Positions 7,034 to 20,290 of a DNA stretch of 64,000 nucleotides are shown piece after piece (positions within the stretch are counted from its first letter, which is position 1; the number at the start of each line of letters is the position of its first letter). Position numbers and translations under genes: made by a program. The DNA comes from Nitrospirota bacterium. GTDB lineage: Bacteria > Nitrospirota > Leptospirillia > Leptospirillales > Leptospirillaceae. The stretch is taken from assembly GCA_027314645.1 (NCBI GenBank), contig DAHVAL010000009.1:1-64000 (forward strand), read 5' to 3'. The notes under the pieces are model-generated. The model saw only the letters and a list, made by a program, of their open reading frames with translations, was not told the origin of the DNA and ran no database searches.

Positions 7034-7530
7034 ATACAACCTCGTTTTCTGGAAGAAGGGGTCGGAGTGTCTTAAGAATTTTATCAGCGACCGGACGTCA
7101 AGTCACCTGAGAGCAACGTCGGAAGGAAGGGGAGAGATTGGGCGCTCCCCGTTCCTTCAGGCCTTCAAAGGGGGGATCGGCATCACAGACAAAAGGGCGT
7201 CGCCCGGGAAAAAGATCCCCCGTGCCCTTGCGCGAATAGGCGGATTTCCTAAAATCATTCGAGGCCCCCTTTTCGTCCCGGATAGACGAGCATGCCATGA
7301 GGGGGCAAACCGGCCGCGGCCTGGCATTTAATGGGCATCGAGAGAAAACCGGGGGCCATCGGCAGGTCCCGGAGGGCTCACATTCATCCGGAGACTGAAA
7401 TGATCCGATAATGTGTGAGTTGAGGCGATGCGATCCCATCGATGGGATCTCCTATTGCATTCAAAGACTCATGGAACCGGATGCATCGGACAATCTTTTC
7501 ATCGTTATATCAATGGAGGAGGCAGGCCGG
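7034..7530. other. Intergenic region, 497 bases, between divergent genes
   Basis: No gene supported. A 113-codon minus-strand frame (7439-7098) is present but is Cys/Arg/Pro-rich with no domain or ribosome site. The only clear structure is the 18-base palindrome at 7432-7449. Confidence 0.6.
7432..7449. repeat. Perfect 18-base palindrome upstream of the phosphoesterase gene
   Basis: GATCCCATC followed directly by GATGGGATC, with no mismatch and no spacer, about 80 bases before the ATG of the secreted phosphoesterase. Its compact, spacerless form suits a dimeric regulator site more than an RNA hairpin. Function inferred. Confidence 0.5.
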
Positions 7531-9480
7531 ATGAGGGGCATCGAAGAACGTGCGGGATGGAGATGGGCATATTTCGGAATGGGATTGATTCTGATCGCCG
7601 CAATGCTTCTCTTTCCGGGTCGGCCCGAGGCCAAGGAACGGACGCCCAAAAAAGCGGGCGCCTCTTCTCCCCTCACGCCGATCCGGCATGTCATTATCGT
7701 GGTCGGGGAAAACCGGTCTTTCGACAACCTTTTCGCCACCTATCGCCCGCTCCATGGCCAACATATTCGAAACCTTCTTTCCGAAGGGATTGTCACACCC
7801 TCGGGAGACCCGTGGATCCATTTTGGCAAGGCGTTACAGATGCGCGCGAGGAATGAAGGGCCCTTCCTTCTGGACCCTCCCCTCGAGGGACCTTTCAAAG
7901 TCCTGCCCGTGCCCGACGTGACCTATGCGGCCAAGGCCGCGTGGGGAACATCGGACCCGTCCCTCGTCCCCGACCCGGGCCTTTTCCCGTCCGATCAGTT
8001 TCTCCTTAAAACCGGCGGGGCAGGATTGCCGCACGATAATGCGGATACACGCTTTCCTGCCAATCTTCCCCCTGGACCCTTCCAAATCACGCATTTCGTT
8101 CCCTACGATTCCTATACCGGAGACCCGATTCACCGATTCTTCCAGATGTGGCAACAGTCGCATTTCCGGAAACAGGGGGCCTCTTCGAAGCGAAAGACGG
8201 AGGAGGGGCACGACCTGTACACCTGGGTGGCCGTCCAGGTCGGAAACGGCGGAAACGGGAACCCTCCTTCCACCCCCTTCGGTGTGGACTCCACCCACCA
8301 GGGGGGCGTTCCGATGGGGTTTTATAATATGGAAACGGGGGATGCCCCTTATTTCAAATGGCTCGCCGACCATTTTTCCTTGGCAGACAATTACCACCAA
8401 GCCATTATGGGGGGAACGGGGCCCAACCACGTGGCCATCGGCACCGGAGACGTCGTCTGGTACCAGAACGGCAAGGGGCGTCCCATCGTTCCCCCAGCGG
8501 GTCAGATCGAAAATCCGGACGCCATGAATGGAACCAATAATTGGTACATCCAAGATGGGTATTCGGGGGGGGCGTATGTCAACTGTTCCGACTCTGAAAG
8601 TCCTGGCGTGAAGGCCATCCTGTCCTATCTCACACGCCTTCCCTATCGGACCTCCTCCCGATGTGCCCCCCACCATTATTATATGGTGAACAACAATAAA
8701 CCGGGGTTCCATCGGGATGGAAGACGCTATGTGTCCGACTTCTTTGTTCCGCCTTCATCATTGCGAACGATCGGGGATGAGCTTTCGCAGCATGAAATCT
8801 CCTGGGGGTATTTCGGGGAAGGATTCCATCCGAACACACCGAGGACCCCTTACTATTGCAATATCTGCAATCCTTTCCAGTACGCCTCCTCCATCATGAC
8901 GACACCCCTCATCGGCCATCTTGGAGGGCTGGGGGATTTCTATCGCTCCATCGAGGAACGTACCCTTCCTGCGGTGTCCATCGTCAAGCCGGATGCCCTT
9001 CTCGATGGACATCCCGCCTATGGAAAGCCGGGTCTTTTTGAAGGATTCGTCAGGAAATTGGTCGACACGGTGCGCCGCAGCCCTTATTGGAATCACACAG
9101 CGATTTTTGTGACCTTCGATGAAGGGGGAGGGTATTACGATTCTGGATATATCCAATCCATCGACTTCTTCGGAGACGGGCCCAGGGTCCCTTTTTTTGC
9201 CATTTCTCCGTATTCTCGGGGAGGGACGGTGGTCCATGCGTATTTTGACCATGTCTCCCTCTTGAAGTTCATCGAGAGAAATTGGGCCCTTCCCCCGCTC
9301 ACCTCCCGAAGCCGTGACAACCTTCCCGACCCGATCGCCCGGAAGAACGATCCCTATGTCCCGGTCAACAATCCCGCCATCGGAGATCTGATGGAGATGT
9401 TTCATTTTCCCCGGACCAGGGTCTCTTCCCAGACCCCGTTTGTGTCAGACCCCCCGATCAATGATGCCCCCGGACGATAG
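7531..9480 (+). CDS. Secreted phosphoesterase (phospholipase C / acid phosphatase family)
   Basis: A 649-aa protein of the alkaline-phosphatase-like phosphoesterase family. A signal segment lies at about residues 14-35 (GMGLILIAAMLLF, then small residues), predicting export. Family motifs in order are VVGENRSFDNLF, PNHVAIGTGD, FVTFDEGGGYYDS, GPRVPFFAISPYSRGG and DHVSLLKFIERNW. These provide the metal and nucleophile positions of the fold. It should release phosphate from a phosphodiester or phosphomonoester in the periplasm or outside the cell; the substrate cannot be told. ATG 7531 is chosen because GGAGGAGGC lies 8-12 bases upstream and the signal peptide then begins properly; the frame is open further upstream across a palindrome. 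Confidence 0.85.
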   Translation: MRGIEERAGWRWAYFGMGLILIAAMLLFPGRPEAKERTPKKAGASSPLTPIRHVIIVVGENRSFDNLFATYRPLHGQHIRNLLSEGIVTPSGDPWIHFGKALQMRARNEGPFLLDPPLEGPFKVLPVPDVTYAAKAAWGTSDPSLVPDPGLFPSDQFLLKTGGAGLPHDNADTRFPANLPPGPFQITHFVPYDSYTGDPIHRFFQMWQQSHFRKQGASSKRKTEEGHDLYTWVAVQVGNGGNGNPPSTPFGVDSTHQGGVPMGFYNMETGDAPYFKWLADHFSLADNYHQAIMGGTGPNHVAIGTGDVVWYQNGKGRPIVPPAGQIENPDAMNGTNNWYIQDGYSGGAYVNCSDSESPGVKAILSYLTRLPYRTSSRCAPHHYYMVNNNKPGFHRDGRRYVSDFFVPPSSLRTIGDELSQHEISWGYFGEGFHPNTPRTPYYCNICNPFQYASSIMTTPLIGHLGGLGDFYRSIEERTLPAVSIVKPDALLDGHPAYGKPGLFEGFVRKLVDTVRRSPYWNHTAIFVTFDEGGGYYDSGYIQSIDFFGDGPRVPFFAISPYSRGGTVVHAYFDHVSLLKFIERNWALPPLTSRSRDNLPDPIARKNDPYVPVNNPAIGDLMEMFHFPRTRVSSQTPFVSDPPINDAPGR

Positions 9481-9675
9481 GCCGTGCGGTCCGGCCTTCC
9501 GGTCAGGATCCTTTTGTGCTTCTTTGGGCGGGGGATCCCTTAAAGAGGCGATGGAAGATCCTCCGGGGGAATGAAACTTGTTCCGGAATTTGCATTGATT
9601 GAAGGCGCAAAGTAAGCTTTGGGTGCTTTCCGGGACCTCATCCACAACGGAAATGTCAGGAAAGGGCCACGGGTT

Positions 9676-10914
9676 GTGACTAAAAACCTCCTTCCTTTTG
9701 AAGTTCCGTTTCGTTTATTTGTCGCCATCACCTTTGCCGGATCCATCGCCTTCCATATTCTCGGACTTGGAATCCATACTTATATCGGACACAAGAAAAA
9801 CGCCTTGGTCGACCAAATCGAAACTCTCGCCGAAACGAGAAGCCGTCTCATCGGCTTCGAAGCCGGATTGTCGGTGTTGACAGAGCGGCTACGGTCGGCC
9901 GGGATGAAGGAGAGAATCCAAAAAGAAATCGCGCTTCGGCAGCTGTTTCCCCAGATGCGCCTGATGACCCTGCTTTTGGAAAAACAGCACATTTTTTCTT
10001 TGGGAAAAAATCAGGCCCTCAAGAGGACCTTGGAGGGCGCCGCCCGTTCTTTGATGCAGTGCCGGGAGGCGGTCGGAGGTCCGGCTTTGGCATGCCTGGA
10101 CAGGGCCACGCTTGCCTTTTCCGAATTCGGCCGCCAACTCACCCGAATCCGCGCGCAGGTGTCATTGCAGCTAAACATCGTTGAACGGTTCCAATCAAGG
10201 CTTGAGCACTGGGATTCCATCCTTTATTGGTTGACCACGATTTTCGGGCTTCTGTTCATGGGGCTTGGATGGAGGAACGTGGTCCTTCAGGTCGGGAACC
10301 CTATCAAGGATGCCGCGCGTTATTTCGAAACCCTCCGGGATGATCAGCCGTCTCGATCTTCATCGCTTCCTGCGCTGTTTTCCATCCGAGAACTTAGGAT
10401 CCTGAAGGAGAATATGAAAAATGTCCACAGGGACGGATTGACGGGACTTCCGACCCGGCAAGCCATCGGAATCATTCTTAAAGACGAGATGGAAAGTGCG
10501 CAAAAGAGCTTGTCCCCCCTGTCGATCGGTCTATTGGATATTGACGGGTTTCGGAACTTCAATAAGCGCTACGGCCACGGAACGGGAGACCGGGTTTTGC
10601 GGGAAGTCGCCCGTACCATCGAACAGGCCCTTCGTCCCAAGGAATGCTGCGGGCGTTGGGGTGAAGAAGAGTTTCTGCTGGTTCTTCCGGGACTTTCCTT
10701 GGATATGGCGCGTGATTTTCTGGACATCCTCCGCAGCAAGATCGGCCGACCGATCGAAATCCCTCCGGAGACGACCCTTAAAGTGCGTGCAAGCGGGGGC
10801 GTCAGTTGTTTCAGCGGGGACGAAAAGTTTGAGGATCTGCTCAGCAGGGCCGAACGAGCGCTTTCAAGAGTCCGGCGTGAAGGGGGAAATGGCGTTGGGG
10901 CCGAGATCTCATGA
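9676..10914 (+). CDS. Membrane-anchored GGDEF protein with altered active-site motif
   Basis: A 412-aa inner-membrane protein. One transmembrane helix lies near residues 11-32 and a second near 185-205. Between them is a helical domain of about 150 residues that may face the periplasm. The C-terminus is a GGDEF domain with HRDGLTGLPTR, LLDIDGFRNFNKRYGHG and a final SRAERALSRVRREGGN. The signature reads RWGEEEF instead of RxGG[DE]EF: the second glycine is glutamate. The following acidic residues remain, but activity is doubtful and it may bind GTP or act as a receptor. GTG 9676 is preferred (AGGAAAGGG nine bases upstream, helix then N-terminal); TTG 9619 is possible but lacks a ribosome site. 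Confidence 0.82.
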   Translation: MTKNLLPFEVPFRLFVAITFAGSIAFHILGLGIHTYIGHKKNALVDQIETLAETRSRLIGFEAGLSVLTERLRSAGMKERIQKEIALRQLFPQMRLMTLLLEKQHIFSLGKNQALKRTLEGAARSLMQCREAVGGPALACLDRATLAFSEFGRQLTRIRAQVSLQLNIVERFQSRLEHWDSILYWLTTIFGLLFMGLGWRNVVLQVGNPIKDAARYFETLRDDQPSRSSSLPALFSIRELRILKENMKNVHRDGLTGLPTRQAIGIILKDEMESAQKSLSPLSIGLLDIDGFRNFNKRYGHGTGDRVLREVARTIEQALRPKECCGRWGEEEFLLVLPGLSLDMARDFLDILRSKIGRPIEIPPETTLKVRASGGVSCFSGDEKFEDLLSRAERALSRVRREGGNGVGAEIS

Positions 10915-10962: not shown

Positions 10963-10990
10963 GCCAGACTCTGATCAGGTCAGGTCTGGC
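10963..10990. repeat. Inverted repeat at the convergent end of the GGDEF and HEPN-like genes
   Basis: GCCAGAC and GTCTGGC, perfect 7-base arms, 14-base loop containing CTGATCAG. It overlaps the stop of the minus-strand gene. There is no T-run, so it is at most a weak bidirectional terminator. Confidence 0.3.
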
Positions 10991-11453
10991 GCGCGTATCG
11001 GGGGGAGAGATGGCGGCCCAGGGAACGGGCCAGGTCCAGGATGTAGCGTGCATCGGAAAGCGCGGCCTGCGCTGATTCCTGGGAGGGTGCATCTGCAGGC
11101 GAGGAAGAGAAGGAGTCCTCTCCGAATGTCATGAAATCTCCGGCGCCGGCAAAGGGTGCACCCGTGGATTGCGGCTGTTCTGGCGAGACGATTTTTCCGA
11201 TCCGGTCCCAATCGGCGGGAATGGCTGAAGGAAACCGCTGTCGCTCTTTGGAAAAGACCTCACCAGGATTCTGAAATCGGTTGATTTCCATGCCTTGGGC
11301 ATGGAGCAAGGACTTGAAGGAAAAGTCGAGTGCCTCCCGGCATTCGCGGATGACGTCGGGCCACTCTTCACGGCCATAAAAGAGTTCCGCGGACTTGATC
11401 CGGGTGACCGCGTTCCAGAGATTGCGCCTGGCGAGATTGTCCGGATTTTTCAT
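10980..11453 (-). CDS. HEPN-like protein downstream of the SOS polymerase cassette
   Basis: A 157-aa protein whose first 75 residues match the HEPN pattern: NLWNAVTRIKSAELF, an ECREALDFSFKSLLHAQG helix, then a loop at the place of the usual H-[DN]-[IVL]-G segment. The RNase-type R-x4-6-H motif is not seen, so a catalytic role is unlikely; HEPN proteins also act as antitoxin partners, RNA binders or transferase partners. The C-terminal half looks disordered and ends in a short helix. ATG 11453 is preferred because GTGAGGACCTTC stands directly before it and the domain starts there; ATG 11573 (197 aa) is an alternative. It lies 154 bases after the polymerase stop on the same strand. Confidence 0.6.
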   Translation of the reverse strand: MKNPDNLARRNLWNAVTRIKSAELFYGREEWPDVIRECREALDFSFKSLLHAQGMEINRFQNPGEVFSKERQRFPSAIPADWDRIGKIVSPEQPQSTGAPFAGAGDFMTFGEDSFSSSPADAPSQESAQAALSDARYILDLARSLGRHLSPRYARQT

Positions 11454-11573
11454 GAAGGTCCTCACTTCCCCCTCGTGGATCGCCTCTTCGTCCTGGCTCC
11501 AGGGATCGCTCCGCGCATCCGCCCCGTGTGTCGATGAGTGCGACGCTTCGTCTTTGAATGCAATGGTCCTCAT

Positions 11574-11582
11574 TATAGCATG
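11574..11582 (-). promoter_or_regulatory. Possible extended -10 promoter before the HEPN-like gene
   Basis: The minus strand reads TGCTATAAT, a perfect extended -10 (TGnTATAAT), in the gap just after the polymerase stop. No good -35 is seen 17 bases upstream, which extended -10 promoters can tolerate. It would give the HEPN-like gene its own transcript with a leader of roughly 110 bases. Confidence 0.35.
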
Positions 11583-11607
11583 TCTTCTGATCTCCGGAGC
11601 CGGGGCC

Positions 11608-13851
11608 TTACCGTTTCCACAGAAGGGCTTCCAGAGGCTTCCGGGAAGGAGGAGCCTTCGCGCGAAGCGGCATTCCGGGAAGATCGAGAAGCGGCTCGCA
11701 CGCCCGAAGGAGCAACCGTTCATAGGCATTCCTGTCATAGGTGTAGTCCGGAGAAAAGGTGTCGTAGGCCCGAGCGCGGGAAGCGGGGTCGGGATCGTCC
11801 GCGGCCGTAATGACGTAGGCGACACGTTCCCCCGGCTGGGGGGAACGGCCTCGGGCCGCCAATTCCTGGGCCACAATTGCTTGGAAGGAACGTTTCTCGT
11901 AGCTTTCCGGAGATTTTGACAGGCGCTTCCGGATGACGAGACGGGCGACGGGAACCCGGCCTTGCCGGATTTCCTGCACAGCCTCTTCAAGGAGTTGCCT
12001 GGCGGCGGGAATCCGTGTCCGGTACTCCTGCAACGTGTGCGCGTATGCAAGATGATCGAGAAGCTTTTCCTGCGTATCGGAAATAAAGAGCGGCGTATCG
12101 CTTCGACGGACCTCGATCCCCCGAACCTTACGCTCTCCGGAGCGAAAGACTCCGAAGTATCGGTTGGGGACGGCCAGGCGTTCGCGTTTTGTGGAGGAGA
12201 AGAAAATAATCCATCGGTAGAGGCCTTCAAGAGCGATCGGGATGCCGGTTTCCTGCGTGATCTCTTCGGCAAGACGGCGGCAGTCGGCTTCATCGATCCC
12301 GGGACGAGAAAGCCAAAGAGAGTCCACGATGCCGTGCAGAAGCCGGTATCCGCGGTTTTCTGCGATTTCCTTCGCCTGGAGAAGCTTTTCACGGCTCAGT
12401 GCGGTGACGCATTCGTGGGCCTCGACTCTCCCGAAGCGTGCATTTTTGTATCCCAGATATCCGAATGAGACGACAAGAAGCCATTTGAGGGCTCCTTGCC
12501 GACGATCGTATTCGCCCTTGAGGTCGGGATCGTCCGTGGTGTTTTTCAGTTCTTTGTAGAGGCGTCTTTTCGCAAGGAGCGATTCAAGAACCGTGGGGAC
12601 CAGCCCCTTTCGGCGGGTACAAAGATGGTGGGTGCTGTTCGGAATCCGGTTGGTCGTGCAGCAGAGGCAGTTGACCGTTTCGGGCGAGATGTTGAACGTC
12701 GCCATCAGCGAAGGATACATGGACGCAAAGTCGAGTTCAGCGACCGATTCGTGAAAGCCCGGCCTCGGCAGGAAGACCATTCCTCCCTTATCACTTTTGA
12801 TCAGGTCGAGGCTGCTGCGGAATGATTCTGCGGAGCTTTTTTCGAGCGGAACAAGGATGCCTGCGGAGACGGCATAGGCCATCTGCATGGAGGTGATGCC
12901 TGTTCCCGTCGATGTTCTGGCAAGATGCTGGACGGGAATTCTTGTCACGCGGGATTGCTCAAAGAGGCCCGAGAGGCCGGCTTCTCCCAGGATGAAGGAG
13001 TTTTTCCGGTCCAGATGCCAACGTCCAAAGAGGGAAACCGAGCCGGCGCGAAAGATGGTTCTTCCGTAAGAAAAAAACGAACGGTCCCTGCCGGAAGAGA
13101 GCGCCTTCCCCTTCGTCCGGTTGAGCAGGAGCGGAATGCCGAGGCGGCTGGAAAGTGCGAGGAGGCGGGGAAAAATAAGGTCGTCTCCCCGGTTCGACAG
13201 AATGATGTCCGGATCGTTCCGTGTCAGAACGGCGTTGAAGGTCATCAGAAATTCCCGGGGATCTTCCCCGTCGAGAACCCGTCTCTCCCCGTCGATCTCG
13301 ATGGAAAGTGCTCCGAGGGCTCCTTCCCGCGCCGCCGGAATCTCTGGTTCAAGCTCGATCGACAGGATGCGGAAAGGCGGAAGCGGCGTGTCGGTCGCCC
13401 AAGGAGAGTCGAGAAGGTCGATCCGTCCTGGAATATGCGTGGTCCTGCAGAGGGCGAGAGGGAAGAGTCCGGATTCGTAAAAATAAAGCTGGGGCAAGGG
13501 GATGTCGGCGTTATAGAGCGCGATATCCTTCACCAAAGCCACTGTTCGAACGACGTCGAAAAAATCTGCAGGAGAGAAGACGGAGATTTCGAGAACGGGA
13601 TATGGAGCGCCGCTGAAAAGCTCGATGCGTTCCGTATGGGCGAGGGCGAGTTGAAAATTCCGCTGCCGAAGCCGCTGTTTTATTCGTTCGAGCGCCATTT
13701 CCGGCCCGCTCGCATAAAAACGGGGGCGAAAGGGGACCGGAAAAAAAATGTGTTCCCCCTGTTCGAGCATCATCCAAAGCAGCATCCCGCGGGAGATCGG
13801 GGTGGCGTCAAGCACCCATCCTTGGCGGTTAGGAGGGGAGACGAGAGCCAC
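11608..13851 (-). CDS. Divergent family-B DNA polymerase (PolB2-like), SOS cassette
   Basis: A 747-aa family-B polymerase. Motif A is ELDFASMYPS with Asp374, motif B is ALKWLLVVSFGYLGYKN with Lys456, and KVRGIE lies in the thumb. Motif C reads GIVDS instead of GDTDS: Ile508 replaces the first Asp, while the catalytic Asp510 remains. The 3'-5' exonuclease looks dead: Exo I is LSIELE rather than D-I-E, and no Exo III Y-x3-D is seen. Cys/His residues near 395-411 (NCLCC and HHLC) may bind zinc. Start GTG 13851 is a best guess overlapping the 91-aa gene by 23 bases. The combination of operon, likely no proofreading and LexA control suggests damage tolerance or mutagenic repair rather than replication. 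Archaeal and bacterial PolB2 enzymes share such motif loss, as I recall. Confidence 0.85.
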   Translation of the reverse strand: MALVSPPNRQGWVLDATPISRGMLLWMMLEQGEHIFFPVPFRPRFYASGPEMALERIKQRLRQRNFQLALAHTERIELFSGAPYPVLEISVFSPADFFDVVRTVALVKDIALYNADIPLPQLYFYESGLFPLALCRTTHIPGRIDLLDSPWATDTPLPPFRILSIELEPEIPAAREGALGALSIEIDGERRVLDGEDPREFLMTFNAVLTRNDPDIILSNRGDDLIFPRLLALSSRLGIPLLLNRTKGKALSSGRDRSFFSYGRTIFRAGSVSLFGRWHLDRKNSFILGEAGLSGLFEQSRVTRIPVQHLARTSTGTGITSMQMAYAVSAGILVPLEKSSAESFRSSLDLIKSDKGGMVFLPRPGFHESVAELDFASMYPSLMATFNISPETVNCLCCTTNRIPNSTHHLCTRRKGLVPTVLESLLAKRRLYKELKNTTDDPDLKGEYDRRQGALKWLLVVSFGYLGYKNARFGRVEAHECVTALSREKLLQAKEIAENRGYRLLHGIVDSLWLSRPGIDEADCRRLAEEITQETGIPIALEGLYRWIIFFSSTKRERLAVPNRYFGVFRSGERKVRGIEVRRSDTPLFISDTQEKLLDHLAYAHTLQEYRTRIPAARQLLEEAVQEIRQGRVPVARLVIRKRLSKSPESYEKRSFQAIVAQELAARGRSPQPGERVAYVITAADDPDPASRARAYDTFSPDYTYDRNAYERLLLRACEPLLDLPGMPLRAKAPPSRKPLEALLWKR

Positions 13852-14104
13852 GATCTTCGAGTTCCTGAATACGGCGCTCAAGTGTGAGGCGTTCACGCCG
13901 CTCTTCGAGAAGCATGCAGAGCAGCATGACGGGAAAGGGTTCAAGCGGAGAGAGCAAGGCGCCTGCTTGAGCATGGAAGCGAGCATCGGCGAATAGACTG
14001 TCGAAAATCATCTGATCGTCCCGCCGAAGAGCTTTCCGGAAGATCGACCATTCTGCCATCGTTTGCTCCACGGCCATCGTGAAGGTTGGAAGAGTCCGGC
14101 CCAT
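13829..14104 (-). CDS. 91-aa helical protein of the SOS polymerase cassette, unknown function
   Basis: A small protein starting MGRTLPTFTMAVEQTM and mostly predicted alpha-helical, with a distinctive FRKALRRDDQMIFDSLF segment and a charged C-terminal helix (LEERRERLTLERRIQE) that could be a short coiled coil. No catalytic motif is seen. ATG 14104 overlaps the stop of the RecA-like gene as TGATG, and its own stop overlaps the polymerase start, so it is fixed inside the operon and probably made in proportion with its neighbours. By position it may be an adaptor between the RecA-like protein and the polymerase; this is inference. The FRKALRR...FDSLF block looks conserved-family-like, but I cannot name the family. 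Confidence 0.75.
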   Translation of the reverse strand: MGRTLPTFTMAVEQTMAEWSIFRKALRRDDQMIFDSLFADARFHAQAGALLSPLEPFPVMLLCMLLEERRERLTLERRIQELEDRGSRLPS

Positions 14105-14763
14105 CAGGCTTGTTCCTTTGAAAAGAGAGGAGCGGCTTTGCGGCGACGTTCCTGGGGAGGGGGCGGATGCGAGAAAGAGACGGCAATCGTGTCGTCCGCC
14201 CATGAATTCAGGATCGACAGGATACGGTGGAGCCGTCTGTCATCATTCGTGCCGCCCTCTTCAGCCAATATCAGGCATGGCAGATCTTCCGCGCGCGAAA
14301 TCTTTCGTACAAGTTGCATGGTGCGCTCAAGAAGATCGGATGCAGTCCGTTCCGCGACGGCTCCGTCCGAAAACAGAACGGGGATACCGGAAAGGAGGAG
14401 AAAGGATCTCCGCCCCTTCCGGAGTGTTCTGTCCCCCTGGGCGGCCGCAAGGGCGTGAAACTGATGGATCGTGAATGCCCGGGCGATAAAGGTGCGCGAC
14501 AGGATGTCCTCGGGAGCCTTTCCCCGATTGCGCGCTTCACGGATCAGGACGGTCGGACAAAACACATTGTCTCCACAGAGGATCGCCCCGGTGTCGAACT
14601 GATGCGCGTGACTCAAAAGATGAAACGCCAGGATCCGATGGCCAAGCAGTCCCAGAACGTCGCCCTTTCCCCGGAGGAGGTGCAGGCCTCCTGCGTCCAG
14701 CGTCGACGCAGGAAATGGCAGGTTTACAGGCAGGGTTTCACCGGAGCATGAAGATGGCGTCAA
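14104..14763 (-). CDS. RecA/RadA-superfamily protein without Walker A (ImuA-like role)
   Basis: A 219-aa protein with RecA-fold layout: an N-terminal GGLHLLRGKGD where a P-loop would be, then a strand and helix (FDTGAILCGDNVFCPTVLI), IARAFTIHQFHALAA resembling the RadA segment after Walker A, a hydrophobic Walker-B-like strand (RRSFLLLSGIPVLF), and a late LPCLILAEEGG strand. There is no G-x4-GK-[ST], so ATP hydrolysis is unlikely. Gene order directly after lexA matches imuA or sulA-type RecA-like genes in lexA-imuA-imuB-dnaE2 cassettes. TTG 14763 overlaps the lexA stop as TTGA behind GGAGG, indicating coupling. It may help recruit RecA filaments or the polymerase. Confidence 0.72.
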   Translation of the reverse strand: MTPSSCSGETLPVNLPFPASTLDAGGLHLLRGKGDVLGLLGHRILAFHLLSHAHQFDTGAILCGDNVFCPTVLIREARNRGKAPEDILSRTFIARAFTIHQFHALAAAQGDRTLRKGRRSFLLLSGIPVLFSDGAVAERTASDLLERTMQLVRKISRAEDLPCLILAEEGGTNDDRRLHRILSILNSWADDTIAVSFSHPPPPQERRRKAAPLFSKEQA

Positions 14764-15389
14764 GGCGGGCTTCCTCCGAGGGAGGGCCGGAAGACGCCGC
14801 TCACGATTCCGATGATCCGGAACGCGCTGCCTTCCGTAACGACGATGGTCTCGTAGTCCGGGTTTTCCGGAACGAGGAGGATGGCGCCATCTTTTCGACG
14901 GAATCTTTTGACCGTTGTTTCTCCATTGATTTCGGCCACGACGATATCGTCGTTTTCGGCGGTCTCTTTCAGCCGGACAAGCACATAGTCACCATCAAGG
15001 ATCGCCGCCAACTTCATGCTTTCTCCCTTGACGCGGAGCAGAAAAACCGGTCCGGAAGGAATCCATGCCGGATCAAGCGCAACGGTATCGAGCCGATTTT
15101 CTTCTGAGACGATCGGGATACCCGCAACGACGCGCCCGAGCAGGGGAACGGAAATCGTCGGTGGGATGACCGGATCGATGTCGAGGGCGCGTGCGCCCTT
15201 TCTGCGGACGAGATATCCTTTTCGGATGAGTGCATCAAGATGCTTCCGGACGGCGCTGATCCCGACGATTCCCATCTTTCGGGCGATTTCCCTGAGGGTT
15301 GGCGGATAGCCGAAAGCCCCGGCATGCTCATGAATGAACTGCAGGATTACCTTCTGGCGATCTGTCAACGGATCTCGATCGTGCTCCAT
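14760..15389 (-). CDS. lexA: LexA repressor (SOS regulator)
   Basis: A 209-aa LexA. The N-terminal winged helix covers about residues 8-65 (LTDRQKVILQFIHEH, then PPTLREIARKMG and SAVRKHLDALIRKGY). The self-cleavage site is Ala89-Gly90 in RVVAGIP. The catalytic dyad is Ser124 in KGESM and Lys161 in TVKRF, so RecA-stimulated autocleavage should work. The start ATG 15389 follows AGAGGAA; an upstream GTG at 15440 lies inside the operator and is rejected. The gene leads a tightly overlapped operon with a RecA-like gene, a 91-aa gene and a family-B polymerase, which would all be induced by DNA damage. An operator overlaps its own transcription start. Confidence 0.95.
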   Translation of the reverse strand: MEHDRDPLTDRQKVILQFIHEHAGAFGYPPTLREIARKMGIVGISAVRKHLDALIRKGYLVRRKGARALDIDPVIPPTISVPLLGRVVAGIPIVSEENRLDTVALDPAWIPSGPVFLLRVKGESMKLAAILDGDYVLVRLKETAENDDIVVAEINGETTVKRFRRKDGAILLVPENPDYETIVVTEGSAFRIIGIVSGVFRPSLGGSPP

Positions 15390-15424
15390 TTCCTCTTCTT
15401 TCCCTCCCAGGCATTTTTTGAAAT

Positions 15425-15440
15425 GTGAACATTTGTTCAC
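15425..15440. promoter_or_regulatory. LexA operator (SOS box), GAAC-N4-GTTC type
   Basis: A perfect palindrome GTGAAC-ATTT-GTTCAC. The core GAACN4GTTC is the Gram-positive-type SOS box rather than the E. coli CTG-N10-CAG type. It begins four bases after the -10 of the lexA promoter, covering the transcription start, so LexA binding would block its own operon. Confidence 0.88.
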
Positions 15441-15444
15441 CTAA

Positions 15445-15473
15445 GGTATACCAAAGCGCCGGTTTTGCGTCAA
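15445..15473 (-). promoter_or_regulatory. Promoter of the lexA operon
   Basis: Minus-strand -35 TTGACG (15473-15468), 17-base spacer, -10 TATACC (15450-15445). The SOS box lies immediately downstream. Confidence 0.75.
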
Positions 15474-15662: not shown

Positions 15663-16913
15663 ATGAAGCTTTACGAGCACGAGGCGCTGGGGTCCATTTT
15701 CAAGAAATATAAAATTCCCGTCCCGCGTTATGTCTTTTCCGCAGAAATGAATGACGCGGTTCGGCAATTTGTCGAGAAGGAGCCCGGGGTCGTTATTAAG
15801 TCGATGGTGCTGGTCGGAAAGCGTGGAAAGGCCGGCGCTGTCAAGGTTGTCTCGGACAAGGCCCAGGTTGGCAAGATATTTGCCGATCTTGCGACGCGGG
15901 AGGTCTATGGCGAAAAGTCAATCGGCGCCTTGGTGGAAGAAAAGCTCGATATCGAAAAAGAGTTCTATCTGAGTGTGACCTATTCGACGAAAGATCGTGC
16001 TCCCGCAATCATTTTTAGCGAGCATGGCGGCATGGATGTGGAGGAGATCGATCCGAAGCTCATCCATACGTATGTCGTCTCCGATGTCCGTTCGGTCTAT
16101 CCCTACCAGATTCGCCAGTTTCTGGCCGGGATCGGCTTTTCGGACAAGGATCTGCTTCGTCCGCTCTCTGAAGTGATCGTGAATGTCTACAACGCTTTCT
16201 GGGGTTCCGAAAGCCGCCTTCTGGAAATCAATCCGCTTGTTGTGGCCCGTTCGGGGGAAAAGCGAAAGATCGTTGCTGCGGATGCCGTCGTGATTCTTGA
16301 CGATGATGCCTCGGTCAATCCCGCGGTCGTGTACGGAGCCAGAAGCGCCCAGGGGCGTCCATTGACCCAGCGCGAGCAGGACGCGATCTTGATCGACCAG
16401 GGAGATCACCGTGGAAAGGCAGGCTCTTATGTGGAGCTCGACGGCGATATCGCAATGATGACCTTCGGCGGCGGTGGCTCGACGGTTACGGCGGAGACGG
16501 CGATCGAGGCTGGTCTTCGGATCGCCAACCTCACGGATATCGGAGGGAATCCTCCCGCCGAGAAGATGTATCGGATCTCAAGAATCATCCTGTCGAAACC
16601 AGGCTTGAAAGGCGTTCTTGTGTGCGGCGGAACGGCCAGCAATACCCGGATCGATGTCACGCTTGGCGAAGGGTTGGCCAAGGCCATCGACGATATGATT
16701 GCGGAAGGTGTTCTGGCTAAAAATCTGGTCTGGGTGGTGCGCCGTTCTGGTCCCGAATATGTCAAGGGGCTGAAGATGCTTCATGAGTGTTTTGTCCGGA
16801 ACGGGATCCGAGGGGAAATTTTTGATTCACAGCTCCCCATCACGGAAGCCCCGATCCGGCTGAAGGAACTGCTGATCAAGCATATTGCCTACAAGCCCGA
16901 ACAGAGTGCGTAA
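15663..16913 (+). CDS. ccsA: Citryl-CoA synthetase, large (SucC-like) subunit
   Basis: A 416-aa ATP-grasp protein of the succinyl-CoA synthetase beta / ATP-citrate lyase group. It begins MKLYEHEALGSIFKKYKIPVP, has the LLEINPLVV metal/nucleotide segment, and a C-terminal CoA-ligase domain with GGGGSTVTAET and NLTDIGGNPP. It differs from sucC at 24444 in having a longer inter-domain region, and its partner at 16945 is SucD-like. With a separate citryl-CoA lyase at 20387, the set fits the two-step citrate cleavage known from Hydrogenobacter rather than a fused ATP-citrate lyase. It would use ATP, citrate and CoA to make citryl-CoA in the reductive TCA cycle. Start ATG 15663 follows AGGAGTCAAGAGAG. 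The size fits the roughly 46-kDa Hydrogenobacter subunit. Confidence 0.87.
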   Translation: MKLYEHEALGSIFKKYKIPVPRYVFSAEMNDAVRQFVEKEPGVVIKSMVLVGKRGKAGAVKVVSDKAQVGKIFADLATREVYGEKSIGALVEEKLDIEKEFYLSVTYSTKDRAPAIIFSEHGGMDVEEIDPKLIHTYVVSDVRSVYPYQIRQFLAGIGFSDKDLLRPLSEVIVNVYNAFWGSESRLLEINPLVVARSGEKRKIVAADAVVILDDDASVNPAVVYGARSAQGRPLTQREQDAILIDQGDHRGKAGSYVELDGDIAMMTFGGGGSTVTAETAIEAGLRIANLTDIGGNPPAEKMYRISRIILSKPGLKGVLVCGGTASNTRIDVTLGEGLAKAIDDMIAEGVLAKNLVWVVRRSGPEYVKGLKMLHECFVRNGIRGEIFDSQLPITEAPIRLKELLIKHIAYKPEQSA

Positions 16914-16944
16914 TTTTCTGACTTATAATTTAAGGGAGACTGTC

Positions 16945-17928
16945 TTGAAGGGAACCGTCTATTTAAACGACAAAACAGGCATCGTTGTCATCGGTGCCAC
17001 CGGCCGCGAGGCGTCCCAGGTCATCAAGGAATCGGAAGCGCTTTATCCGGGGATCGTAAAGGCTGGAATCACTCCAGGAAAAGGAGGGTCCACCGAATTA
17101 CCCGTTCCCGTTTTTGACACCTTGAAGGAAGCGATCAGTGATCCGAAGGTCGGACCGCTTTTAAATACCGCCTTGATCTATGTTCCTCCGGTGTCGGTTT
17201 TGGATGCGGTGATGGAATGTCTGGACAATGGAATTAAGGTCCTGTATATTATCACCGAACATGTGCCCATTCGGGATTCGGAGATCATTTTCCAGGAAAA
17301 AGTCCGACGCGGCGCAATCATCGTCGGGGGAACAAGTCTCGGCTGTTTCGTTCCCTCTGTCGGCCGGATTGGGGCGATCGGCGGGAAGGATCCTTCGATT
17401 GCTTTCCGGGACGGCGGGATCGTCGTCATCTCCAAGAGCGGTGGTCTGACTGTGACCACGGCCGAGATGTTCAAGCGTCGGGGATGGGGAACCTACATGG
17501 CCTTGGCGATCGGGGGTGACATCATCTCCAACACGACCTATGCCGATGTCCTGAAGGAGATCAAGGGAGATCCCCGGGTCAAAGGAGTGGTGATGCTTGG
17601 AGAGCCCGGCGGATCCTATGAGGAGCAGGTGGCGGACCTGATCCTTTCAGGCGGGTTTGACAAGCCTGTTGTAGCCTTTATTTCCGGCCGTTTTCAGGAA
17701 AGGATGCCGGAAGGTGTCGCTTTTGGACATGCCGGGGCGATCGTAGAACGCGGCATGGGAAAGGCGACGGACAAGATCGCCCGACTCGAGGCGGCGGGAA
17801 AAAAATGTCCCGTGAAGGTGGCCTTCTATTATCATGATCTCGTGAAGGCAATTGAGTCGCTCGGTGTGCCTCGTGACTTTGAGGACAGCACGACCGAGCA
17901 TGTGAAGCCCCTTTACTCCACGATCTAG
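16945..17928 (+). CDS. ccsB: Citryl-CoA synthetase, small (SucD-like) subunit
   Basis: A 327-aa CoA-ligase alpha-type subunit. An N-terminal Rossmann CoA-binding domain has VVIGATGREASQ and TPGKGGSTELPV; the C-terminal flavodoxin-like domain carries FGHAGAIVERG, whose histidine is phosphorylated in this family. It pairs with ccsA 31 bases upstream. The start is taken as TTG 16945, behind AAGGGAGACTGTC. A longer reading from 16885 would begin inside ccsA and lacks a ribosome site. The same leader-plus-TTG pattern occurs at sucC. It differs from sucD (25628) by a longer C-terminus ending in a region of charged residues. Confidence 0.87.
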   Translation: MKGTVYLNDKTGIVVIGATGREASQVIKESEALYPGIVKAGITPGKGGSTELPVPVFDTLKEAISDPKVGPLLNTALIYVPPVSVLDAVMECLDNGIKVLYIITEHVPIRDSEIIFQEKVRRGAIIVGGTSLGCFVPSVGRIGAIGGKDPSIAFRDGGIVVISKSGGLTVTTAEMFKRRGWGTYMALAIGGDIISNTTYADVLKEIKGDPRVKGVVMLGEPGGSYEEQVADLILSGGFDKPVVAFISGRFQERMPEGVAFGHAGAIVERGMGKATDKIARLEAAGKKCPVKVAFYYHDLVKAIESLGVPRDFEDSTTEHVKPLYSTI

Positions 17929-18364: not shown

Positions 18365-20290
18365 ATGGCGCTTAACCTGACGCAGAAAATCATCAAAAAT
18401 CATCTTGCTTCTGGAGAAATGGTTCCCGGGAAACAAGTGGCGATCAAAATTGATCAGACCCTGACCCAGGATGCAACCGGAACAATGTCCTACCTTCAGT
18501 TCGAAGCCCTTGGTCTTGACCGCGTTCAGACCGAGCTCTCTGTTTCCTATGTCGACCACAACATGCTTCAGACCGGCTTTGAAAATGCTGACGATCACCG
18601 CTACCTTCAAACGGTGGCCGCTCGATATGGAATTGTTTTCTCCCGCCCCGGGAACGGCATTTGCCATCAGGTCCATCTGGAACGCTTTGGAAGACCGGGC
18701 AAGACCCTTCTTGGGTCCGACAGCCATACCCCGACCAATGGGGGCCTTGCCATGCTGGCGATCGGCGCCGGAGGCCTCGATGTGTCCTTGGCCATGGGGG
18801 GCGAGCCTTTCTATACCACGATGCCGAAGATCGTTCTTGTCAAACTGACCGGAAAACTTCAACCCTTCGTCTCCGCCAAAGATGTCATTCTTGAACTTCT
18901 TCGCCGGCTCACAGTGAAGGGAGGCGTGGGACGGATCTTTGAGTACGGGGGAGAGGGCGTCAAGGGATTGTCTGTGCCCGAACGCTCCACGATCACGAAC
19001 ATGGGAGCCGAACTCGGCGCAACAACCTCCCTCTTTCCTTCTGATGATCAGACCCGCAAATACTTGAAAGCTCAGGGTCGGGAAAAGGATTATGTTCCGA
19101 TGGAGGCCGATCCTGGGGCCACCTACGATGAAACGGTCGAAATCGACCTGAACACGCTCGAGCCACTGATCGCCCAGCCCCATTCGCCGGACAATGTGGT
19201 CAAGGTCCGTGAAATTCAGGGCATTCCGGTAAGCCAGGTTGCGATCGGATCCTGCACCAATTCCTCTTACAAGGATCTCTTGTCGATTGCGGGAATCATG
19301 AAGGGCAAAACGGTGCACCCTTCCGTGAGCTTGGGATTTTCCCCCGGGTCCCGCCAGACATTGGAAATGATCTCCCAGAACGGAGTCCTTGGCGATTTGA
19401 TCGCCGCTGGAGCCCGCTTGCTTGAATCCGCCTGCGGACCTTGCATCGGGATGGGATTTGCTCCCCCATCGGGCGGGGTTTCGGTCCGGACCTTCAACCG
19501 AAATTTTGAAGGCCGTTCCGGCACCAAAGATGCGAAGGTGTACCTTGCCAGCCCCGAAGTTGCTGCGGCCTGTGCCATTACGGGGGTCATCACCGATCCC
19601 CGGGACCTAAAGGTCAAGGCGGAAAACGTGGAACTCCCCGAGAAATATGTCCTAGATGACAGAATGGTCATTTTCCCACCGGCGGATGGTCACAGCATCG
19701 AGGTCCTTCGCGGGCCCAACATCAAACCTCTTCCCACCCGTGACCGCATCTCCGAGACCGTTAGCGGAACAGTATTGCTGAAGGTCGGAGACAATATCAC
19801 CACCGACCATATCATGCCGGCGGGGGCCAAGGTTCTTCCTCTCCGCTCCAATGTGCCCGCAATCTCCCAATACGTGTTCGAATCGGTGGATCCCACCTTT
19901 CCGAAGCGCGCGAAGGAGGCGGGTGGCGGCTTCATCGTCGGTGGAGCCAACTATGGACAGGGTTCCAGCCGTGAACACGCCGCGCTCGCTCCGATGTATC
20001 TGGGAGTCCGAGCTGTCATTGTCAAAGGCTTTGCGCGGATTCACTTGGCGAACCTCATCAATTTCGGGATTCTGCCGCTGACCTTTGCCAACGAGTCCGA
20101 TTACGACAAGATTGATCGTGATGACAAGCTTGAATTCAGCACCAAGGGACTTGAAACGGGACATCTTGTTTTAAGGAACCTGACCAAAAAGATCGACATT
20201 CCTGTCACGCACTCCCTTTCTGCCCGGGACCTTGAGATCGTTCGGGCGGGGGGAACGTTGGCGTATGTCAAGGAACAAGCCAAGAAATAG
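18365..20290 (+). CDS. acnA: Aconitate hydratase (641-aa Aquifex-type)
   Basis: An aconitase of the short, single-chain group seen in Aquificales and other reductive-TCA bacteria. Cluster and substrate motifs include GSDSHTPTNGGL, the first cluster cysteine in IGSCTNSS, and CGPC in ESACGPCIGMG, giving the three Fe-S ligands. The C-terminal swivel domain has GGANYGQGSSREHAAL. It interconverts citrate and isocitrate, linking isocitrate made by reductive carboxylation to citrate cleavage by the neighbouring ccs and ccl genes. The start ATG 18365 lies behind TAAGGAGATTAAGC. A terminator follows the stop, so it appears monocistronic. The symbol is by homology class only. Confidence 0.93.
   Translation: MALNLTQKIIKNHLASGEMVPGKQVAIKIDQTLTQDATGTMSYLQFEALGLDRVQTELSVSYVDHNMLQTGFENADDHRYLQTVAARYGIVFSRPGNGICHQVHLERFGRPGKTLLGSDSHTPTNGGLAMLAIGAGGLDVSLAMGGEPFYTTMPKIVLVKLTGKLQPFVSAKDVILELLRRLTVKGGVGRIFEYGGEGVKGLSVPERSTITNMGAELGATTSLFPSDDQTRKYLKAQGREKDYVPMEADPGATYDETVEIDLNTLEPLIAQPHSPDNVVKVREIQGIPVSQVAIGSCTNSSYKDLLSIAGIMKGKTVHPSVSLGFSPGSRQTLEMISQNGVLGDLIAAGARLLESACGPCIGMGFAPPSGGVSVRTFNRNFEGRSGTKDAKVYLASPEVAAACAITGVITDPRDLKVKAENVELPEKYVLDDRMVIFPPADGHSIEVLRGPNIKPLPTRDRISETVSGTVLLKVGDNITTDHIMPAGAKVLPLRSNVPAISQYVFESVDPTFPKRAKEAGGGFIVGGANYGQGSSREHAALAPMYLGVRAVIVKGFARIHLANLINFGILPLTFANESDYDKIDRDDKLEFSTKGLETGHLVLRNLTKKIDIPVTHSLSARDLEIVRAGGTLAYVKEQAKK

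Follow-up and report, generated by a model that had tools for sequence, protein, structure and literature searches.

A PolB2 mutasome operon with a putative LexA operator in a Leptospirillaceae genome

The locus and its gene calls

The window analysed here is a 64,000-nucleotide stretch of a Nitrospirota genome (family Leptospirillaceae; GenBank assembly GCA_027314645.1, contig DAHVAL010000009.1, positions 1 to 64,000). Between positions 10980 and 15473 it carries five genes, lexA, iRadA, PPB2, polB2 and a gene for a HEPN-like protein, all on the minus strand. The features are listed below, from the promoter side.

15445..15473, minus strand: putative sigma70-like promoter, TTGACG-17 bp-TATACC, read in the sequence; the same -35/-10 layout is also found before lexA in relatives.
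15424..15441, minus strand: putative LexA operator GGTGAACAAATGTTCACA over the presumed transcription start, a palindrome conserved in the family.
14760..15389, minus strand: lexA, 209 aa; TIGR00498 at 180 bits, with matches to PF01726 and PF00717; start taken from relatives.
14104..14763, minus strand: iRadA, 219 aa, a RadA/Rad51 fold without Walker A, Walker B or the N-terminal domain; from AlphaFold and Foldseek.
13829..14104, minus strand: PPB2 (arCOG07300 family), 91 aa, with an MGRT start; from homologue comparison, and matching the published description (PMC11791011).
11608..13851, minus strand: PolB2, a family-B DNA polymerase of 747 aa; PF00136, NF004416 at 397 bits, and motif alignment.
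10980..11453, minus strand: HEPN-like protein, 157 aa; Pfam HEPN at E=6e-4 and fold search; adjacent, probably not core.

The lexA and iRadA genes overlap by TTGA (14760-14763), iRadA and the 91-aa gene by TGATG (14102-14106), and the 91-aa gene and polB2 by 23 bases (13829-13851). An earlier sequence-only reading had reported these five genes, their strand and the three overlaps, and all were re-found. LexA retains the Ala-Gly cleavage site (VVAGIP) and the Ser and Lys residues (GESM, TVKRF). As read from the sequence, then, the LexA, iRadA, PPB2 and PolB2 genes overlap behind a presumed promoter, which is itself overlapped by a conserved LexA-operator-like palindrome.

Two starts needed a decision. 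The lexA start is most likely the ATG at 15389, because the mechanically called GTG start at 15440 falls within the putative operator and relatives point to 15389. For the HEPN-like gene the most likely start is 11453.

The neighbouring genes lie on the plus strand. Divergent from lexA, at 15663-17928, are genes that by inspection encode an ATP-grasp/citrate-binding protein and a CoA-ligase, a pair resembling a two-gene ATP-citrate lyase or citryl-CoA synthetase; an aconitase-like gene follows at 18365, also by inspection. Heading toward the 3′ end of the cassette are a GGDEF diguanylate cyclase gene (9619-10914) and a phosphoesterase-family (PF04185) gene (7411-9480).

The polymerase, its partners and a neighbour

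Partner genes of PolB2 were renamed iRadA and PPB2 by Timinskas et al. 2025, who modelled a 1:1:3 complex, a heteropentamer, for other members of the family (PMC11791011).

The polymerase matches PF00136 at E=5e-42. In an alignment of 14 family sequences motif A reads DF[AS]S[ML]YP (DFASMYP in the window), and motif C is IVD instead of DTD in all 14. The loop before the palm is D(K/R)GG in 14/14 (SDKGGMV in the window). The exonuclease is degenerate, the acidic residues of Exo I, II and III not being conserved. The family-B assignment, the changed motif C and the apparently dead exonuclease were already part of the sequence-only reading and agree with these data. Loss of the first motif C Asp together with the degenerate exonuclease would also suit a PolB2 with little or no catalytic activity in these bacteria, in which case the complex would have a structural role or would regulate stalled forks or replication initiation; inactivation and a possible regulatory role were first proposed for archaeal PolB2 (PMC4104785). 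We consider this unlikely, as the catalytic Asp of motif A and the second Asp of motif C are invariant (14/14), and the association with missing Y-family polymerases described below suggests a working bypass enzyme. To our knowledge no bacterial PolB2 has been assayed, and the claim of activity leans on the Sulfolobus enzyme. That enzyme, Dpo2, with IID at motif C, is according to work cited in PMC11791011 both active and needed for targeted mutagenesis, which further argues against a dead polymerase.

The RecA-like gene derives from archaea and encodes an inactivated RadA/Rad51 homologue. It has no significant Pfam or NCBIfam match, and its sequence matches to RadA are weak (E=0.005). Its AlphaFold model (pLDDT 83, pTM 0.79) was compared with known structures by Foldseek and matched the ATPase domains of RadA, Rad51 and DMC1 at E about 1e-9, bearing out the description of the gene, made before any search, as a RecA fold lacking a P-loop. 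The features of iRadA are all present: the RadA/Rad51 fold, the missing N-terminal domain and the missing Walker residues. Discounting three chance matches, none of 59 iRadA homologues has an aligned Walker A motif. These look-alikes, in Bacteroidetes-labelled sequences (L138, L145, L149), read GAVxPGKT but lie one strand too early, the GKT preceding the strand before the P-loop position; they are probably due to chance and were rejected. Near the C terminus the window protein and its close relatives have LF in common (APLFSK, GRLFGT, GKLFAD), with no clear QLxLF clamp-binding motif. A clamp-binding motif in iRadA or PolB2 is present in only part of the PolB2 mutasome family.

The window PPB2 starts with MGRT; of 65 homologues encoded upstream of PolB2, 60 have an MGRT-type start (M, V or L first).

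The HEPN-like gene was counted as part of the cassette in the sequence-only reading, a placement we withdraw: it is a neighbour at the level of the genus rather than a conserved component. The Pfam HEPN match scores 20.4 bits against a curated cut-off of 22, and in Foldseek HEPN structures rank first with weak E values (0.026-0.4) and probabilities of 0.99-1.00. The gene could belong functionally to the cassette, for instance as a toxin or an effector acting with the mutasome under SOS control, given that it follows polB2 in the same orientation after a gene-free gap of 154 bp, and lies near polB2 in close relatives. This is very unlikely. In our sample the gene is confined to the genus (13 of the 21 family genomes) and is unlinked to polB2 in several; it occurs at 5 of 80 PolB2 loci, all Leptospirillum-like, and was not detected at the loci of other groups; and the R and H of the RxxxxH motif of HEPN RNases are not conserved in 11 homologues. 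In close relatives, furthermore, a SAM-dependent methyltransferase gene intervenes between polB2 and the HEPN-like gene (L035:6208-7266, and at matching places in L033, L036, L038 and L048); the window does not have it.

Operator, linkage and distribution

The palindrome over the lexA promoter fits the LexA box type GAAC-N4-GTTC and would function as a LexA operator. It is found at the same position before lexA in 11 of 13 Leptospirillum-family loci, window included; the other two (L035 and L041) retain only its outer parts. A lone palindrome would be weak evidence, as a 6+4+6 palindrome arose by chance in 6% of trials with the shuffled 300 bp upstream, and the operator claim therefore rests on conservation in relatives. 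In a pattern search of the window's 2.04-Mb genome a single site had at most one mismatch to GGTGAACNNNNGTTCACC, namely the putative lexA operator. Five sites with two mismatches, all inside possible reading frames (frame calls were mechanical), were rejected as promoter operators on that ground. At up to three mismatches there are 75 sites versus 39 in a reversed-pattern control, and such weak sites cannot be judged. Around recA, 18 neighbourhoods had no operator site with two or fewer mismatches (one strand was scanned, the pattern being palindromic). With recA lacking an operator, the SOS circuit is not the classical one. The conservation of the operator, its uniqueness in the genome and its absence near recA are new relative to the literature.

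The polymerase was found in 16 of the 21 family genomes. The order lexA-iRadA-PPB2-PolB2 is kept in all 12 fetched family loci with a detected lexA, the window not counted. A wider scan for PolB2, with each species represented by one genome, yielded 80 loci with labels that include Nitrospirota, Acidobacteria, Armatimonadetes, Chloroflexi, Bacteroidota/Ignavibacteria, Rokubacteria, Deltaproteobacteria and others; close relatives of the window polymerase are Nitrospirae metagenome bins. Upstream genes were counted in the 57 loci with at least 1.7 kb of upstream DNA. As to whether the partner genes always accompany this polymerase clade and LexA, iRadA and PPB2 lie upstream of PolB2 in 54/57 loci, and a co-directed lexA lies upstream in 30/57. 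At PolB2 loci lexA is thus common, not universal. Enrichment of lexA in bacterial PolB2 neighbourhoods has been published, along with a single transfer from archaea (PMC11791011). Since the gene order recurs both in relatives and across phyla, the arrangement is not due to chance.

No Y-family polymerase (PF00817) was found in any of the 21 family genomes, the window's included, several of which are incomplete; the search was positive in 11 of 14 controls. DnaE never matches more than once in a family genome, and matches once in the window's, leaving no sign of a second DnaE (DnaE2). In the window's family, no dedicated translesion polymerase other than PolB2 is apparent. For a comparison across the phylum we took 118 genomes at least 85% complete, of which 82 have a Y-family polymerase. 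The PolB2 alignment matched 17 genomes at 1e-60, and excluding one weak match (G093) left 16 carriers. A Y-family polymerase is absent in 13/16 carriers versus 23/102 non-carriers (Fisher p=9e-6, an overstated significance since the genomes are related). Outside the window's family it is absent in 5/8 versus 21/100 (p=0.019, uncorrected for relatedness). Genomes there with PolB2 and no Y-family polymerase are G029, G044 and those of family f7 (G026, G035 and G043). The recurrence of this pattern in families f1, f7, f9 and f10 suggests that PolB2 replaced the Y-family more than once in the phylum. The complementarity of PolB2 and Y-family polymerases is new relative to the literature.

In a phage collection, relatives of PolB2 occur in four Leptospira phage records only. 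Complete iRadA-PPB2-PolB2 cassettes, the PPB2 with its MGRT start, lie in two of these Leptospira phages, at L200:3186-6262 (KF114878.1) and L201:3174-6442 (KF114879.1). Profile searches of the two loci detected PPB2 (E 8e-22 and 9e-20) and iRadA (E 5e-15 and 9e-17) directly upstream of the polymerase, while a tblastn search of phages with PPB2 gave no match. In both phages the genes for PPB2 and iRadA carry the annotation "hypothetical protein", and PHROGs 30126 and 26583, of unknown function, match PPB2. No LexA was detected beside the cassettes in the two loci read. The phage cassettes may be unreported, as the published survey was restricted to bacterial and archaeal sequences (PMC11791011).

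Proposed function and comparison with known systems

The locus is very probably a LexA-controlled bacterial operon for the PolB2 mutasome. Under DNA damage, RecA filaments would promote self-cleavage of LexA and so free the operator. LexA and the three mutasome proteins would then be made together, and rising LexA would close the operon again. The complex, once formed, would carry out bypass synthesis: PolB2, without proofreading, would bypass lesions, chiefly by extending distorted primer ends, with iRadA docked on it like a Rad51 subunit in a filament and the MGRT arm of the PPB2 trimer inserted close to the active site, as in the published model. We infer damage induction, complex formation and bypass from these features. 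The mutasome would fill the role held elsewhere by Pol IV, Pol V or ImuB/DnaE2, because it appears to include the only dedicated translesion polymerase of the family. The sequence-only reading had proposed an SOS family-B translesion system in place of ImuB/DnaE2; the published mutasome, the conserved operator and the missing Y-family support it well, and it is not new.

A broader reading is offered tentatively, as somewhat less than an even prospect. In Leptospirillaceae the LexA regulon may have shrunk to essentially LexA and the PolB2 mutasome operon, with recA out of it, and an archaeal-derived complex may have replaced the Y-family as the only SOS mutagenesis machine, one of several such replacements in the phylum. 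A family seemingly without Y-family polymerases, and with its LexA operator on one operon, would be a clean setting in which to test SOS mutagenesis by a family-B polymerase only. The phage-borne copies would extend the PolB2 mutasome to mobile elements. What makes the locus interesting is chiefly the data on regulation and distribution, together with the phage copies.

E. coli DNA polymerase II is likewise a LexA-regulated family-B polymerase, and an accurate SOS enzyme of that kind lying beside lexA by chance is hardly credible, being contradicted by the lost exonuclease motifs, by a best Pol II model at 80 bits versus 397 for NF004416, and by the conserved iRadA and PPB2 partners. Pol II, cited as SOS-inducible (PMC12926913), is alike in polymerase family and SOS context; it differs in having an active exonuclease, a DTD motif C and single-subunit action.

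The lexA-imuA-imuB-dnaE2 cassettes, which the order of the genes had been said to mimic, are alike in function, each being a LexA-led operon that pairs an error-prone polymerase with a protein of the RecA superfamily. The likeness stops there: the polymerase here is of family B, no Y-family ImuB and no DnaE2 were found, and the RecA-like part is RadA/Rad51-like without a P-loop. Parallels between Pol V and the PolB2 mutasome have been drawn: the E. coli Pol V mutasome (UmuD'2C-RecA) also joins a polymerase to a RecA/Rad51-family subunit and a small subunit that forms oligomers and has an N-terminal arm (PMC11791011), although its polymerase is of family Y and its small subunit is unrelated.

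The Sulfolobus Dpo2 operon has the same three-gene core, an IxD motif C (IID there, IVD here), an inactive exonuclease and the DK loop, and differs in its archaeal regulators where the present operon has the bacterial LexA. The bacterial order is always iRadA-PPB2-PolB2, whereas archaeal orders vary (PMC11791011).

PolB2, arCOG07300 and the inactivated RadA were linked in archaea and bacteria by Makarova et al. 2014, with lexA in some bacteria, and the four genes LFML04_0990-0993 of Leptospirillum ferriphilum were named as a typical example (PMC4104785); a 2026 polymerase survey lists the group as G2/PolB2 (PMC12926913). The present locus has the gene order in one orientation, the MGRT start, the retained motif A Asp, the IVD, the D(K/R) loop, the dead exonuclease and the iRadA features. 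It is the known PolB2 mutasome operon iRadA-PPB2-PolB2 and hence a rediscovery: with no substantial anatomical difference, its genes, order, orientation and motifs are like those described before (PMC4104785, PMC11791011).
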